From the IMG/VR virus record IMGVR_UViG_3300009038_000003, positions 1 to 41,050 of that record: DNA of 41,050 nt. One strand, given 5' to 3'. The position numbers and the translations under genes were made by a program. Shown here in pieces: positions 4,053-38,002 of the stretch. The number at the start of each line of letters is the position of its first letter. The first letter of the stretch is position 1. The notes under the pieces are model-generated. The model was not told the DNA's origin. It made no database searches and was given only the letters and a program-made list of their open reading frames with translations. The stretch comes from a virus.

Positions 4053-4257
4053 GGAAACGTACCTCGGAGACGGACTTTATGCGTCCTTCGACGGATACCA
4101 GATCAAGCTACGTGCGCCCCGTGAGGATGGCGACCATGAGGTTTACATGGAACCTGAAGTGTATACGGCGCTTCAGGCGTTCGTAGAGGTTTACATGGAA
4201 CCTGAAGTGTATACGGCGCTTCAGGCGTTCGTAACGAAGTTGAAGGAGCCGAAATGA
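4042..4257 (+). CDS. Small phage protein with internal 16-residue duplication
   Basis: This 71-residue protein is encoded between exonuclease and Bet, overlapping both (11 and 4 bases), with CAGGAG upstream. The N-terminus ([20 protein letters not shown]) resembles a small phage protein family I recall beside recombination genes. Residues 33-48 ([16 protein letters not shown]) are repeated exactly as 49-64 because of a perfect 48-bp duplication. The duplication extends the C-terminal helix without changing frame. Its function is unknown. Position suggests an accessory role in recombination. Confidence 0.7.
4138..4233 (+). repeat. Perfect 48-bp tandem duplication
   Basis: Bases 4138-4185 and 4186-4233 are identical and in frame (16 codons each). 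The absence of any synonymous difference points to a very recent duplication, or to an assembly duplication. Confidence 0.95.
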
Positions 4258-5837: not shown

Positions 5838-5873
5838 AGTCGTGGGAGGATGCCCATGGTGGTGGGCCTCGGA

Positions 5874-5896
5874 ACGGGGAGCATATTGCTCCCCGT
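5874..5896. other. Perfect 10-bp hairpin after the last late gene
   Basis: ACGGGGAGCA and TGCTCCCCGT pair around a 3-nt loop, two bases past the stop codon of the leftward gene ending at 5899. There is no T tract on either side, so it is more likely an RNA 3'-end stabiliser or pause element than an intrinsic terminator. The real terminator lies 40 bases further on. Confidence 0.7.
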
Positions 5897-5898
5897 AA

Positions 5899-6084
5899 TC
5901 AGTTGCAGGGGTTGCCGTTGCTGTGCGTGCCGATGTTCAGGTCAGTCGCAATGCACGGGGAAACTTTGATGTATGGGACCGGTGTGTAGCGGGCGGGCGG
6001 TGCGACGCTGCCGTAAGCGTCGATAGCAGGGGCCGGTGTGCAGGTTCCGAAGGTGCAGAGAACGGCAACAATCAACTCAATCAT
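5899..6084 (-). CDS. Small exported or membrane-anchored protein in lysis region
   Basis: This 61-residue protein has a short hydrophobic N-terminus (IELIVAVLCTFGTCTPAPA) and four Cys in all, then a proline-containing tail ending NGNPCN. A clear AGGAGA site precedes the ATG. It is the last gene of the late operon, downstream of holin and spanin-like genes. A small outer-membrane spanin subunit is conceivable, but the lipobox is poor, so I leave it unnamed. Confidence 0.55.
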   Translation of the reverse strand: MIELIVAVLCTFGTCTPAPAIDAYGSVAPPARYTPVPYIKVSPCIATDLNIGTHSNGNPCN

Positions 6085-6545: not shown

Positions 6546-6818
6546 TTAGCCCGTGGCCGCCTGATGGTCGGTCAGAGCCGGCGCATTGGGCTGGCCAGGT
6601 GTCAGGTGGTCCGCTACTGCGGTGATCGCCTCATGCACCGGCGCCCCGGTCGCCTGGCCGACGGTGTCCACAGCTTTCACGAGAACCGGAAGCAGCGGCA
6701 GGAACTTACTGAACAGCGCAAATTCCGGGAAGAACATCCCCAGCGCGCCGAACAGCGTCGGGAGGATTTCCTCGGCGACCTTCATGCCATTTTCGATTTC
6801 GCCTACGGTATCACCCAT
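6546..6818 (-). CDS. Holin-like membrane protein
   Basis: This 90-residue protein has an amphipathic N-terminus and a hydrophobic core at about residues 18-50 (ILPTLFGALGMFFPEFALFS, then KFLPLLPVLVKAV) with a polar tail. It lies directly after the endolysin gene, where holins normally are, and has AGGAGCG before the ATG. The 25 bases at 6683-6707 are duplicated exactly in the CRISPR-like insert upstream at 6862-6886. The holin call rests on position and hydrophobicity. Confidence 0.6.
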   Translation of the reverse strand: MGDTVGEIENGMKVAEEILPTLFGALGMFFPEFALFSKFLPLLPVLVKAVDTVGQATGAPVHEAITAVADHLTPGQPNAPALTDHQAATG

Positions 6819-6828
6819 TACTCGCTCC

Positions 6829-6920
6829 TATTCAAATGAGGCCGCAGCAGCGCGGAAAGTGGAACCGGAAGCAGCGGCAGGAACTTCGCGCTTCAATGAG
6901 GCCGCGCTACTGCGGAAAAT
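6829..6920 (-). CRISPR. CRISPR-like mini-unit with holin-derived insert
   Basis: Two about 31-base repeats with 60-base periodicity (ends at 6860 and 6920) flank a 29-base insert (6861-6889). Read on the plus strand, the complete copy (6890-6920) is GCTTCAATGAGG, then CCGC-N6-GCGG, then AAAAT. The other copy is degenerate, with TTCAAATGAGG. On the minus strand it ends in ATTGAAGC, like a crRNA 5' handle. Insert bases 6862-6886 are identical to 25 bases of the holin gene 179 bp downstream, while both insert ends differ. The stem cores (6842-6855 and 6902-6915) are reverse complements with one G-U wobble on the minus strand. The unit exactly fills the gap between the endolysin stop and the holin ribosome-binding site. 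Confidence 0.6.
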
Positions 6921-7614: not shown

Positions 7615-8601
7615 TCACGAAATGATGAAACCAAAGGATCGTGCTCCGCCGCCGCCCGACGGAGTATACGCGATAGCGATCAGCCCCTGAAAGGCATTGC
7701 CGCCCGCACCGTTGACGGTGGCCCCCGGCCCGCCGCCACCACCACCACCACCGTATGAACCACCCCCGCCGCCGGCGCCGCCGGTGCTGCCTGTTGCCGT
7801 GCCGGCCCCGCCAGCCCCTCCCCCGCCAGAACCATGGGTCGCGTTAAACTGTGTACCGTTGGCCCCCGCTGCCGTGTTGCCAGCATCGCCGACGCCGCCA
7901 GCGCCGCCAGGAGCAGTCGTGGTGGTCACGGTGCCGTCGGCGCCATTGTTCCCAATCCCATGGGGCCCAGCAGCACCCCCGGCGCCTGCGCCCGTACCAT
8001 CGGATGAGGCGGAACACATACTGCCGGGAATGCCCGTCCCGCCCGTCCCGCCGCCACCACCTGAGAACTTGACTGTCCCAACACCGGATGAGGCAAGACC
8101 GCCACCCCCGCCAGCGCCACCCCCGCCAGCGCCCCCGTCAGCGCCAGCGCCCCCGGTCTTGGCAAGCAAGATAGCCGTCGTATCGAAAAACGTATCTCCC
8201 GCGCCAACCTGCACGTTGACGGTCTGGCCCGCGCTGTGACCCGCGTAGTTGACGATGGACGAAAACTCGCCGCCACCGCCACCACCACCACCACTTCCGC
8301 TGTCGGCGCCGCCACCGCCCGCGCCGGAGCCGATGGCATTGATCGTGTTCGACGCGGTGTTGAAATCGGACGGCAACACCGTGGTCGCGCCGGAGACCAC
8401 GAAGAAGTAGGTCAGCGCGATCTGGACGTCTTGCCGACCAAGGAATCTGCGCCACTGGTGCGGCGTCAACTGGTCCTCGGCGATGATATGCTCATTCGGA
8501 TGTAGAGGATTGCGTTGCGGGAATACTCCGTGCCATGCCAGCCACCCCAGCGCTCCGACGGTGAGCGCCAGAGAGGCGAAGCGGACGCCGTTACGGATCA
8601 T
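7615..8601 (-). CDS. Glycine-rich tail fibre-like protein
   Basis: This 328-residue protein has an N-terminal hydrophobic segment (about residues 7-25). A linker region (HQWRRFLGRQDVQIALTYFF) is followed by about 230 residues of glycine-rich repeats with runs of five to eight Gly. A C-terminal GGGGARSFGFIIS closes the chain. Gly-rich polyglycine-helix domains occur in phage fibres and adhesin tips, so receptor binding is plausible. The opposite strand reads as poly-proline, which is only a composition effect. The N-terminal membrane-like helix is unusual for a fibre. Confidence 0.6.
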   Translation of the reverse strand: MIRNGVRFASLALTVGALGWLAWHGVFPQRNPLHPNEHIIAEDQLTPHQWRRFLGRQDVQIALTYFFVVSGATTVLPSDFNTASNTINAIGSGAGGGGADSGSGGGGGGGGEFSSIVNYAGHSAGQTVNVQVGAGDTFFDTTAILLAKTGGAGADGGAGGGGAGGGGGLASSGVGTVKFSGGGGGTGGTGIPGSMCSASSDGTGAGAGGAAGPHGIGNNGADGTVTTTTAPGGAGGVGDAGNTAAGANGTQFNATHGSGGGGAGGAGTATGSTGGAGGGGGSYGGGGGGGGPGATVNGAGGNAFQGLIAIAYTPSGGGGARSFGFIIS

Positions 8602-22454: not shown

Positions 22455-22741
22455 GCTTTATCGCGGCGCAAAACAAGTCCCAGAGAGCGCATTGCACGGA
22501 CCATCTGATTGATTGTGACATCAATTATACGCAGATCAGTCGGGCTATCTACCGCATCATGCGAATAGATCACGTCGAATAGATGCATTCTTGTTGATGG
22601 CGCGGAAAGCATGAGATGACATAGCAAATCAAACCGGATGCAGCGCCCGCTCCCACGCACGCGCTTGAACTGAACACTCACGTTGCCGCGTTCGATGCGC
22701 AACTTCTTGCGATCAATCTCCAATCCACGCCATCTGATCAT
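22421..22741 (-). CDS. Winged-helix DNA-binding protein (OmpR C-terminal-like)
   Basis: This 106-residue protein has a pattern like the OmpR/PhoB effector domain: a start strand pair, a helix (RFDLLCHLMLSAPSTRMHLF), a recognition region (RIIDVTINQMVRAMRSLGL) and a terminal wing (DKAWPYLHWVESV). There is no receiver domain. It is encoded between adaptor and nozzle genes, overlapping both (ATGA with the former, 33 bases with the latter). It could regulate late transcription from within the operon. Confidence 0.6.
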   Translation of the reverse strand: MIRWRGLEIDRKKLRIERGNVSVQFKRVRGSGRCIRFDLLCHLMLSAPSTRMHLFDVIYSHDAVDSPTDLRIIDVTINQMVRAMRSLGLVLRRDKAWPYLHWVESV

Positions 22742-23655
22742 CGCATCACACGCCGCTGGAAATTGCGGTTGTACACGTTGGGAATGCGAATGCCACCGGT
22801 GGTCTGTATAATGTGCGGCACGAAGGCATCGTAGCGCTGTCCCATGTCGCGCACCTGCCCCATATTACGGAGTTTCATGAGCAGGTTTTCCGCGGCCCGG
22901 AACTGCACCGCGCGGGACCACGGATCGTTGATCTGCGTATCGACATCCGACATCGCAACCAGCGGCGACGGCATGAAGACGATGTCCCACTCGGATTGAT
23001 ACTGCTGGTCGGGCGGGGGCTGGATGTAGACTAGGCGCTGCTGCTGGTGCTCGGACCACACGCCGGGCGGTGCGTTGAAATTGTGCACCCACATTCTCGC
23101 ATAGGCATCAAAAAGTGTGAAGTTCAAGTATTTCATCTGCCTCCTTTCCCCATTCCAAATAAATGAAATCTTCGTGGTGGTGATCGGGTTGCCGACCTGC
23201 GTGCTGAGCGAATTGGCCTGGAACAGCACGACGGCGGTCGCCGCGGCGCCGCTGCCGCTACCGCCGACTGCAATGGTCGGGATCGACGTGTAGCCGGCAC
23301 CCCACTGCGTCATGTTGATGGCCGTAAGCGAGCCGCTGGTCAGCACGCCGGTCGCCAGCGCCTGAGTCCCGCCGGCCGGAGGCGCCGAGAACGCGATCGG
23401 AACCGATGCGCCGGCGCCGTAGTTCGATCCGGCGTTTGTGATCGTTGCCCCAGCGACCGCACCGTTCAGCGGGTAGATTTCGACGTTGGGGATAAGTTGG
23501 ACGCCGGTGACGTTCAGCCGGACGCAATGCATGTCGCGCGCGGCGTCAAGGCGGGCTTCGTTGATGCGCGAAATGACGCGCGTGAGTGGCCACACCGACG
23601 CGGTGCTGTCGTGCAATAATTCTTGGACGTCGTTGACATAATCCGATAGCTGCAT
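22738..23655 (-). CDS. Head-tail adaptor protein
   Basis: This 305-residue protein begins with a helix (LSDYVNDVQELLHDS) and has SRINEARLDAARDM, both typical of podovirus adaptor proteins (P22 gp4 / T7 gp11 role). A GxGYTSIPTIAVGGSGSG module is inserted at about residues 60-150. The remainder (YLNFTLFDAYARMWVHNF ... AAENLLMKLRN) continues the helical core. It would sit below the portal ring. Codons for DAYARMWVHNF are mirrored, with synonymous changes, by the CRISPR-like insert upstream at 23694-23729. Confidence 0.65.
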   Translation of the reverse strand: MQLSDYVNDVQELLHDSTASVWPLTRVISRINEARLDAARDMHCVRLNVTGVQLIPNVEIYPLNGAVAGATITNAGSNYGAGASVPIAFSAPPAGGTQALATGVLTSGSLTAINMTQWGAGYTSIPTIAVGGSGSGAAATAVVLFQANSLSTQVGNPITTTKISFIWNGERRQMKYLNFTLFDAYARMWVHNFNAPPGVWSEHQQQRLVYIQPPPDQQYQSEWDIVFMPSPLVAMSDVDTQINDPWSRAVQFRAAENLLMKLRNMGQVRDMGQRYDAFVPHIIQTTGGIRIPNVYNRNFQRRVMR

Positions 23656-23673: not shown

Positions 23674-23757
23674 GCGCCGATGCCGCGGAAAATGTGGAAG
23701 TTGTGCACCCACATGCGCGCGTAGGCGTCGCTTCAATGAGGCCGCAGCATCGGCGTC
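23674..23757 (-). CRISPR. CRISPR-like mini-unit with adaptor-gene insert
   Basis: On the plus strand a repeat end (GCGGAAAAT, 23685-23693) is followed by a 36-base insert (23694-23729), then GCTTCAATGAGGCCGC (23730-23745). On the minus strand the insert reads DAYARMWVHNFH, matching 11 residues of the adjacent adaptor protein. Of the 33 bases encoding those residues, about five differ, and all changes are synonymous. The source is therefore a related phage gene, not a local copy. Arms 23675-23688 and 23742-23755 pair with one G-U wobble on the minus strand. The unit occupies the gap between the upstream stop (23769) and the adaptor start (23655). Confidence 0.6.
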
Positions 23758-25984: not shown

Positions 25985-26998
25985 TCAGATCGGCAGGAAT
26001 TGAAGGCCCGCGAACTTGCCGTGGCACTTCGGTTTGACGTTCACAAGTTCCATCAGCGACAAAATTGCCGAAATCCAGCCGAACTGGTTGTTCGGCAGCG
26101 TGCTCTCGAAGCCGGAGAACGAGAACGCTGCACGCTCGTGCAGGAACAGGTTCAAGTAGTTGGTATTAATTAGATACACCGTCCCCTCGGGGCAGTAGAC
26201 GTCGGCGTAGAACGGGATGCCGGCGACGTCCAGCGCCTGGAAGCTCGAATGCCCCACGAAATTGCCGGAATCGAGCCGGTCGGACGGGTTGATGTTGTAG
26301 CGCTCCTGCGGCGTGAAGTCCTCGCATAGCAGCGCCCAGGTGCCGGCGCCCATGATCCCGATGGTCGGCATCTCGCCCGTGGTCTTGGTGACCTGGGCGA
26401 TATACTGGATCATCAGGTTTCGGGTCGGGATGACATTGCCGGTGTTGTTGACGAAGGTGGATTTCCAGAACGTATTTGTGAGGCGCGGAATGCCACCGTA
26501 GGCATTGAGGAAGGTTCCGTCGTCGATGGCGCCGGGCAATCCGACAAGTTGGGAAGTGTTAGCAATGTTGTTAAACAATGCTGTAGCAAATGCATCAATA
26601 CTGACATTCGTGGCATCGTTGAACCTCGCGTCGATCAGCGGCACCACACCGTAGTCGATCTGGACCAGCCCCTCAAAGCCCAAGAACGGGATCGGCGTCA
26701 CAAACGCTTTGAGGTTGAACTCGGCGTTCTGAATGCCCGGAATGACGCCCGGCTGTTGAAACGTGCCGCTGTAGTCGGTCCACTGCCCGGACACCATCGG
26801 GGTGCCCTGCACCGGCGCCGTGATCGGAGACAAGCCGCCGGATGCCACCTGGGCGCTGGACAGCAACGCCGCGATTAGCGGGGCACTTTTCCAAATTTGG
26901 ACATACACCCTGGGCATGAAAGCTCTTCTCACAACAGCACTTAGCTCTTGCGCTATCGGCCCCTGGGCCGGGATGATGCCACTGCCAAATTGCGGCAC
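25985..26998 (-). CDS. Major capsid protein
   Basis: This 337-residue protein starts at GTG 26998, with AGGAG nine bases upstream. The length, the location downstream of portal and scaffold-like genes, and the alternating helix/strand texture (IPFLGFEGLVQIDYGVVPLI, FATALFNNIANTSQLVGLPG, AAFSFSGFESTLPNNQFGW) agree with an HK97-fold capsid subunit. A single-copy strong ribosome-binding site suits high expression. Residues 26-37 (RAFMPRVYVQIW) are mirrored by the CRISPR-like insert upstream at 27071-27106. Confidence 0.75.
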   Translation of the reverse strand: MPQFGSGIIPAQGPIAQELSAVVRRAFMPRVYVQIWKSAPLIAALLSSAQVASGGLSPITAPVQGTPMVSGQWTDYSGTFQQPGVIPGIQNAEFNLKAFVTPIPFLGFEGLVQIDYGVVPLIDARFNDATNVSIDAFATALFNNIANTSQLVGLPGAIDDGTFLNAYGGIPRLTNTFWKSTFVNNTGNVIPTRNLMIQYIAQVTKTTGEMPTIGIMGAGTWALLCEDFTPQERYNINPSDRLDSGNFVGHSSFQALDVAGIPFYADVYCPEGTVYLINTNYLNLFLHERAAFSFSGFESTLPNNQFGWISAILSLMELVNVKPKCHGKFAGLQFLPI

Positions 26999-27042: not shown

Positions 27043-27126
27043 CGCATCGTTATCGCGGCCTCATTGAAGCCAGATCTGCACTTAGACCCGCGGAATAAAC
27101 GCCCGCACTTCCGCGATAACGATGCG
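27043..27126 (+). CRISPR. CRISPR-like mini-unit with capsid-gene insert
   Basis: On the minus strand a repeat end (GCGGAAGT) is followed by a 36-base insert (27106-27071), then GCTTCAATGAGGCCGC (27070-27055). The handle-like ATTGAAGC therefore lies on the plus strand, opposite to the other two units. The insert reads RAFIPRV-stop-VQIW, matching RAFMPRVYVQIW of the capsid protein encoded 70 bases downstream, with many synonymous differences. Perfect 16-bp arms CGCATCGTTATCGCGG (27043-27058) and its complement (27111-27126) enclose it. It fills the gap between the scaffold-like gene and the capsid gene. Confidence 0.6.
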
Positions 27127-27130
27127 CTTC

Positions 27131-27703
27131 TCACGAGCCATGAAATGACGACGGCAAGCGCCCGCGCTTGAATTCCGTAATCATTTGAATGGCTGTGTTA
27201 TTCGAGTACTTTCGAGGATTCGCGACATAATCCTTGAAATTCAGCATCTTGCCATCCGGCCCCGGCACAGTCGGGAAATCCCATGTCGAACCGTCCAGGT
27301 ATTCCGGCGGCGGCTTCAGGGCGGGATTGTCGGGCGGGTTGCGCGTCGCGTAGATGTCGGCCGCGGCAATCCAGTCGGTCAGGCCGTACGCGGTCTGAAT
27401 CTTCTCCAGCTCCTGGACCTGCTCAGCGCTATAGCCGCGCTTCTTGATGACCTGCTGTTTCTGCGATTCGCGCGCGTTCTGGACGCCGGCCATCCGTTCC
27501 TGCAGCCGATCGTCGTTGAACTTCTGCATGAAGGCGGACAACTTGCGATCGACGGCGACGTCGCTGAACGCCTTGGCCGACTGCGGATCGACCTCTTCCA
27601 CGAGGCGCGCGAAATGGGCGCGGGTCTTCGGATTGTGCGCGAGGTCGTAGGAGAGCTTGGACAGCCGATCCATGTCGGCGGGAGAAAGCTTCGGCGTCGT
27701 CAC
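27131..27703 (-). CDS. Scaffolding-like head assembly protein
   Basis: This 190-residue, mostly helical and charged protein (KAFSDVAVDRKLSAFMQKFN, RMAGVQNARESQKQQVIKKR, YSAEQVQELEKIQTAYGLTD) is encoded immediately upstream of the capsid gene, the usual place for a scaffold. The GTG start at 27703 overlaps the previous stop (GTGA) and has AAAGGG upstream. The basic C-terminus (EFKRGRLPSSFHGS) could bind capsid subunits. The call is by position and composition. Confidence 0.6.
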   Translation of the reverse strand: MTTPKLSPADMDRLSKLSYDLAHNPKTRAHFARLVEEVDPQSAKAFSDVAVDRKLSAFMQKFNDDRLQERMAGVQNARESQKQQVIKKRGYSAEQVQELEKIQTAYGLTDWIAAADIYATRNPPDNPALKPPPEYLDGSTWDFPTVPGPDGKMLNFKDYVANPRKYSNNTAIQMITEFKRGRLPSSFHGS

Positions 27704-37915: not shown

Positions 37916-37939
37916 TACAAAATACTCCGTTTCTCACGA

Positions 37940-38002
37940 CACGTATTTTTCAATCTATAAAAGATCTGACGTCCCTCTGTCTACCTCCATCAATTGTGTC
38001 AG
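37940..38002 (-). repeat. 63-bp inverted repeat, copy 2
   Basis: This is the reverse complement of bases 1-63. It lies in the leader of the leftward operon, oriented with transcription. Conservation without any difference over 63 bases, ending at different sequence, argues for recent duplication or strong functional constraint. Confidence 0.9.

Follow-up and report, generated by a model that had tools for sequence, protein, structure and literature searches.

Three repeat-edged units in a viral genome

The window analysed here is a stretch of 41,050 nucleotides of viral DNA (IMG/VR record IMGVR_UViG_3300009038_000003), in which three short units share the edge sequence CTTCAATGAGGCC (Table 1). 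This edge is found exactly three times in the window, at 6891 and 23731 on the plus strand and at 27069–27057 on the minus strand; when up to two mismatches are allowed there are four matches, a number reached by none of 100 shuffles. Unit 3, with which an earlier sequence-only reading was concerned, is situated between the 190-aa upstream gene and the major capsid gene. It is ordered as a left half-stem, a GCGGAA handle end, the spacer, a GCTTCAATGAGGCCGC edge and a right half-stem; the minus strand from 27126 to 27043 reads as a 16-nt arm ending in GCGG, then AA, a 36-nt spacer, GCTTCAATGAGGCCGC and the complementary arm. The perfect 16-bp inverted arms at 27043–27058 and 27111–27126, the spacer peptide and the shared edge are all as that reading had described them. 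RNA of the minus strand is predicted to fold at −46.2 kcal/mol (z = −3.8 against shuffled controls). In its loop, RAFIPRV*VQIW aligns to RAFMPRVYVQIW of the major capsid protein and scores higher than each of the 856 windows taken as controls from other viral contigs. The fragment of the capsid gene is real; the distance of 70 bases given for it needs a small correction, the edge of the unit and the start codon of the capsid gene being about 45 bases apart. A short ORF (MAREKRIVIAEVRAFIPRV*) at 27141–27082 on the minus strand contains the 5' half of the unit, overlaps the end of the upstream gene and has the spacer TAA as its stop; it may be a chance occurrence.

Table 1. Coordinates of the units and associated genes, in the window unless another locus is named
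Feature	Coordinates	Strand	Remarks
Small gene, 90 aa, adjoining unit 1	6546–6818	−	
Unit 1, repeat-spacer-repeat form	6832–6918	+	both repeats full but degenerate
Structural/connector-like gene adjoining unit 2	22738–23655	−	matching site ~23074–23110 (DAYARMWVHNFN)
Unit 2, permuted hairpin	23674–23756	+	
Spacer 2	~23693–23728		reverse strand encodes DAYARMWVHNFH
Major capsid gene (phrog_9953), next downstream from unit 3	25985–26998	−	matching codons ~26891–26923
Unit 3, permuted hairpin resembling a type I-G crRNA	27043–27126	−	
3' arm of unit 3, starts CCGC	27043–27058	−	
Conserved repeat edge of unit 3, GCTTCAATGAGGCCGC	27055–27070	−	
Spacer 3, 36 nt	27071–27106	−	encodes RAFIPRV*VQIW, diverged copy of capsid-gene segment
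5' arm of unit 3 (minus-strand reading), ends GCGG	27111–27126	−	perfect 16-bp complement of 27043–27058
Gene upstream of unit 3, 190 aa	27131–27703	−	scaffold-like by position
Candidate guide units in L113	1265–1325 and 6165–6224		one beside terminase large, one beside portal, each matching that gene
HNH_3 endonuclease ORFs, free-standing	L260 5234–5974; L269 5373–5996; L275 4130–4627; L282 5273–5956		

The crRNA-like strand is the plus strand for units 1 and 2 and the minus strand for unit 3; the sequence-only reading was correct that unit 3 is opposed to the other two, although it had placed the handle-like end of unit 3 on the plus strand. The inner repeat halves of unit 1 pair across its spacer in the fold, if weakly (z = −2.0), and positions 6683–6707, within the 90-aa gene, match spacer 1 exactly over 25 nt. 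The scanned surroundings of units 2 and 3 contain no sigma-70-like promoter site, as judged by a consensus that may not be that of the host. PADLOC finds no defence or cas genes among ten large ORFs of the window, and a search of Rfam returned nothing. Elsewhere, positions 4138–4233 are a perfect head-to-tail duplication of 48 bases (GAGGTTTACATGGAACC...), and a 68-nt inverted repeat (positions 1–68 and 37934–38001, with arms that are 99% complementary), which has one of its arms at an end of the contig, may be either an assembly artefact or a genome-end feature.

Repeat identity and architecture of the units

In a scan that covered one genome per prokaryote species, GCGGAA...TTCAATGAGGCCGC occurs in CRISPR arrays with a period of 72–73, which among the matches listed come from Acidobacteria, Proteobacteria, Planctomycetes and others. 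The array repeat has the form RCTTCAATGAGGCCGC-stem/loop-GCGGAANN(N), with a stem and loop that vary between arrays. The arrays are adjoined by cas4g/cas1g (NF049935) in L173, L191, L209, L213 and L218 and by cas3g (TIGR02621) in L209, L218 and L248, and because of these neighbours we assign them to subtype I-G. The conserved edges of the viral units, GCGGAA...GCTTCAATGAGGCCGC, are identical to type I-G repeats and correspond to the two halves of one such repeat; on sequence grounds the unit edges belong to subtype I-G repeats. This subtype targets dsDNA, with a TTN PAM and a 36-nt repeat, and the Csb2 protein of T. sulfidiphilus recognises and cuts the repeat to leave an 8-nt 5' handle (PMC9638904). 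A reading of the units as RNA-targeting (type III) was dropped as the neighbouring cas genes ruled against it. The suggestion that DNA rather than RNA is targeted, drawn earlier from the orientation of unit 3, is supported on stronger grounds than orientation alone, because the edges are those of dsDNA-targeting subtype I-G arrays and crRNA sense is mixed across the family.

The two-edge pattern is found in 27 viral stretches, a lower bound on the size of the family since the pattern demands exact conserved edges, and the gap between the edges is 39–43 nt in nearly all of them though 26–50 nt was allowed. All of the sequences that carry a unit are IMG/VR virus contigs, metagenomic or other. 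A control pattern with a compensatory stem base (GTGG...CCAC) has no matches in the viral contigs. A search of these contigs with a 14-mer edge gave mostly chance matches, and the two-edge pattern was used instead.

Most of the units are permuted: they lack the outer halves of the repeats, and neither flank of the spacer bears a full repeat. In units 2 and 3 a single half-repeat stands on each side instead of two full flanking direct repeats. Trimming of the outer halves from a normal repeat-spacer-repeat gives this permuted form, whose stem encloses the spacer. Each unit has arms of its own sequence, which nevertheless pair across the spacer at 105 of 132 pairs, compared with 54.6 ± 5.4 and a maximum of 76 in 2000 shuffles. 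Folds of the permuted units have z values from −2.6 to −6.0, and the stems extend some 20 pairs beyond the conserved base in one L131 unit and in L132.

Homology between spacers and neighbouring genes

After removal of duplicates there are 27 distinct viral units, the three of the window among them, and the peptide of each spacer was compared with the 900 bases on either side of its unit, with 856 windows from 107 viral contigs lacking a unit as controls. For 16 of the 27 the spacer encodes a diverged peptide of the adjoining gene, a score attained by none of the 856 controls, and the remaining 11 resemble the controls and have no neighbour match. The matched gene adjoins the unit either upstream or downstream. 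Those that could be named encode the major capsid protein (the window, L131 and L135), the terminase large subunit (L113 and L130) and the portal or head-tail connector (L113 and L006), and several are unnamed. There are two units in L113 and three in L131, each beside its own matching gene. The sense of the crRNA relative to the target gene is mixed in both of the scorings that we made.

Differences between spacer and neighbour are distributed over the three codon positions as 28, 6 and 96, of 172 each; the codon frame was picked by peptide score, which favours this pattern, and ungapped nucleotide alignments agree with it. Because the differences are concentrated at third codon positions, spacer and neighbour are, by this measure, homologous coding sequence and not a fresh copy, with the exception of the exact 25-nt core of spacer 1.

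A close capsid-gene match to spacer 3, whose absence the sequence-only reading had said would count against it, was not found among the alleles sampled. The interpretation given in that reading is to that extent only partly borne out, the fragment, edge and orientation being real and DNA targeting being supported. The half-repeat architecture, the wider family and the HNH gene that relatives have at this site had escaped it. Spacer 3 matches the carrier's own capsid gene at 24/39 nt and relatives lacking the unit at 25–29/39, so that the best relatives reach 29/39. Among 24 capsid relatives, units 2 and 3 are carried only by the near-identical contig 3300027846_000016. The codons ATT and TAA of spacer 3 are in no sampled capsid allele. 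When AFIPRVxVQIW, the isoleucine form of the capsid peptide, was sought with a degenerate pattern, only unit 3 itself was returned, which places the source allele of this spacer outside the sampled sequences. For spacer 2 the closest relative, L260, matches at 32/37 and the own gene at 30/37. Avoidance of self, measured by overall identity, does not hold throughout: the own gene matches better than any other in the set for L135, is the best available for the scaffold-side spacer of L131 and is near the top of the ranking for the capsid spacer of L131, and the exact 25-nt core of spacer 1 is likewise a match to the carrier's own gene.

For none of the spacers did we find an exact protospacer in any phage other than the carrier. 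The spacers of 19 units have no match among the INPHARED phages, and spacers of type I-G arrays match the viral loci at chance level only. Nearly all self sites lack a TTN PAM, as would be expected by chance, and the relatives are inconsistent in this respect. A pattern of mismatches at every sixth (flipped-out) spacer position was considered and dropped, as it fits some of the mismatches only and depends on the assumed spacer start. L052 has a canonical repeat-spacer-repeat at 7919–8019 with an exact 38-nt match at 5948–5985, about 2 kb away on the same contig, as well as two 23-nt partial copies; it is an exception to self-avoidance and possibly not a phage.

At the scaffold-capsid junction, exactly where unit 3 sits, four relatives (the closest included) have a free-standing HNH_3 ORF in the space that separates the upstream gene from the capsid gene. 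The guide unit and a nuclease gene share one niche in this sense. The only further members that a profile of the four HNH proteins found in the viral loci are in L284 and L286, overlapping loci that come from the same contigs. Clustering of homing endonucleases, HNH and others, beside terminase and capsid genes is known (PMC10448857), and the 16 matched units likewise adjoin the gene that they match. At the site of unit 2 in the closest relative (L284, ~5870–5980) there is a tRNA-like sequence (GGTTCGATTCCCGCC...); a tRNA was suspected here, but ARAGORN does not call one.

Possible functions of the units

The units combine type I-G repeat edges, a spacer between them, covarying arms and homology to the neighbouring gene. 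Because of this combination we think it probable that they are phage-borne, single-spacer guides with which a host type I-G Cas system attacks the homologous gene of rival phages, each guide being linked to the carrier's own diverged allele. Units 1–3 would be minimal single-spacer crRNA genes, compatible with a host type I-G effector. Going by the known biochemistry of I-G systems, the stem, bordered by GCTTCAATGAGG at one side and by AAAC-like bases at the opposite one, would be the recognition site of a normal repeat, and as the variable arms are complementary, the stem that is normally contained within one repeat would be formed across the spacer. The host Cas5-Cas6 fusion (Csb2) is expected to bind the stem and its flanks and to cut upstream of the spacer, such that one stem and one cut would release one complete crRNA. 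By the usual logic of targeting, host Cascade-Cas3 might then attack the capsid gene of co-infecting related phages, from which the carrier's own capsid gene should escape given its differences from spacer 3. The pair would spread if the linked segment of guide and allele took the place of the rival allele. The position of each unit beside its matching gene would follow from the need for guide and immune allele to stay linked through recombination, since recombination that separated them would yield self-attacking genomes.

Homing-like gain of the guide-allele pair is plausible. We put forward more tentatively the idea of an RNA-guided homing or 'cleave-and-rescue' element, in which the hairpin borrows the host type I-G nuclease to cut an essential gene of the rival, and repair or selection favours recombinants having both the guide and the immune allele. 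The units are like the free-standing HNH homing endonucleases of phages (Barth et al. 2023, PMC10448857) in occupying a niche beside essential terminase and capsid genes, but differ from them in supplying a guide RNA and no protein nuclease, and the HNH_3 genes of the relatives are themselves homing candidates only.

Isolated repeat-like elements of phages outside a cas locus are already known as RNA anti-CRISPRs, or Racrs (Camara-Wilpert et al. 2023, PMC10651486), and the long, stable stem of the units, together with the several that are without a recognisable spacer match, could be accommodated by a decoy that mimics the type I-G repeat, ties up Csb2/Cas7 and so protects the phage, with the spacer incidental. 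The known Racrs are solitary repeats, however, whereas the present units keep an insert of normal spacer length (39–43 nt between the edges) within permuted repeat halves, and in 16 of 27 this insert encodes a peptide of the neighbour, for which a decoy has no need; we regard this explanation as unlikely. Much the same can be said of an inert remnant, that is, a host mini-array that was trimmed, was carried near homologous genes by recombination and has no present function. The codons of spacer 3 absent from sampled alleles, the degenerate repeats of unit 1 and the failure to find a promoter near units 2 and 3 would fit such decay, but it is improbable that arms of a remnant would stay complementary while differing between units, that edges would be identical and spacer lengths uniform across unrelated phages, or that L113, L131 and the window would have two to three units apiece, all of them next to the particular gene that they match. 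That direct adjacency, which holds for every matched unit, might instead reflect a cis-acting or antisense RNA controlling the carrier's adjacent gene. We consider this very improbable given the mixed sense and antisense orientations, the differences at most third codon positions, which would make for poor pairing with the carrier's own transcript (24/39 for unit 3), and the type I-G repeat-half edges, which a regulator would not need.

The closest precedent for guides that a virus directs against its relatives is found in the archaeal portogloboviruses SPV1 and SPV2, whose mini-CRISPR arrays (Medvedeva et al. 2019, PMC6858448) similarly have no cas genes, one or two spacers and a host-type repeat. 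The spacers of those arrays match a homologous region of related viruses, with the own site diverged; for the present units a homologous gene was found in relatives and the own site is diverged, but no exact protospacer was found. The targets of SPV1 and SPV2 lie close to the arrays, a feature noted once in that study, where the reason was called unclear. Those arrays are archaeal and have full repeats and a leader with a promoter, whereas the present units are from bacterial viruses, are of subtype I-G, consist mostly of permuted half-repeats with unit-specific stems, have no recognised leader and lie directly beside the matching gene. They resemble type I-G arrays (NAR 2022, PMC9638904) in repeat edges, spacer length and stem position, but the latter are chromosomal, with full repeats next to cas genes, and the phage units have neither. 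Viral mini-arrays were known before; of permuted half-repeat crRNA units, as we read them, we found no earlier account in the open-access literature searched.

If our reading of the units as guides is correct, a permuted crRNA made of a single hairpin would amount to a new and very compact guide format, and one that could escape array finders, since these seek direct repeats. The closeness of guide and target recurs in many unrelated phages, beside capsid, terminase and portal genes, and this recurrence, together with the one site at which relatives have an HNH gene, opens the linkage of guide and immune allele to a direct test. Should the homing reading hold, guide RNAs would fill the niche of homing endonucleases in these phages.
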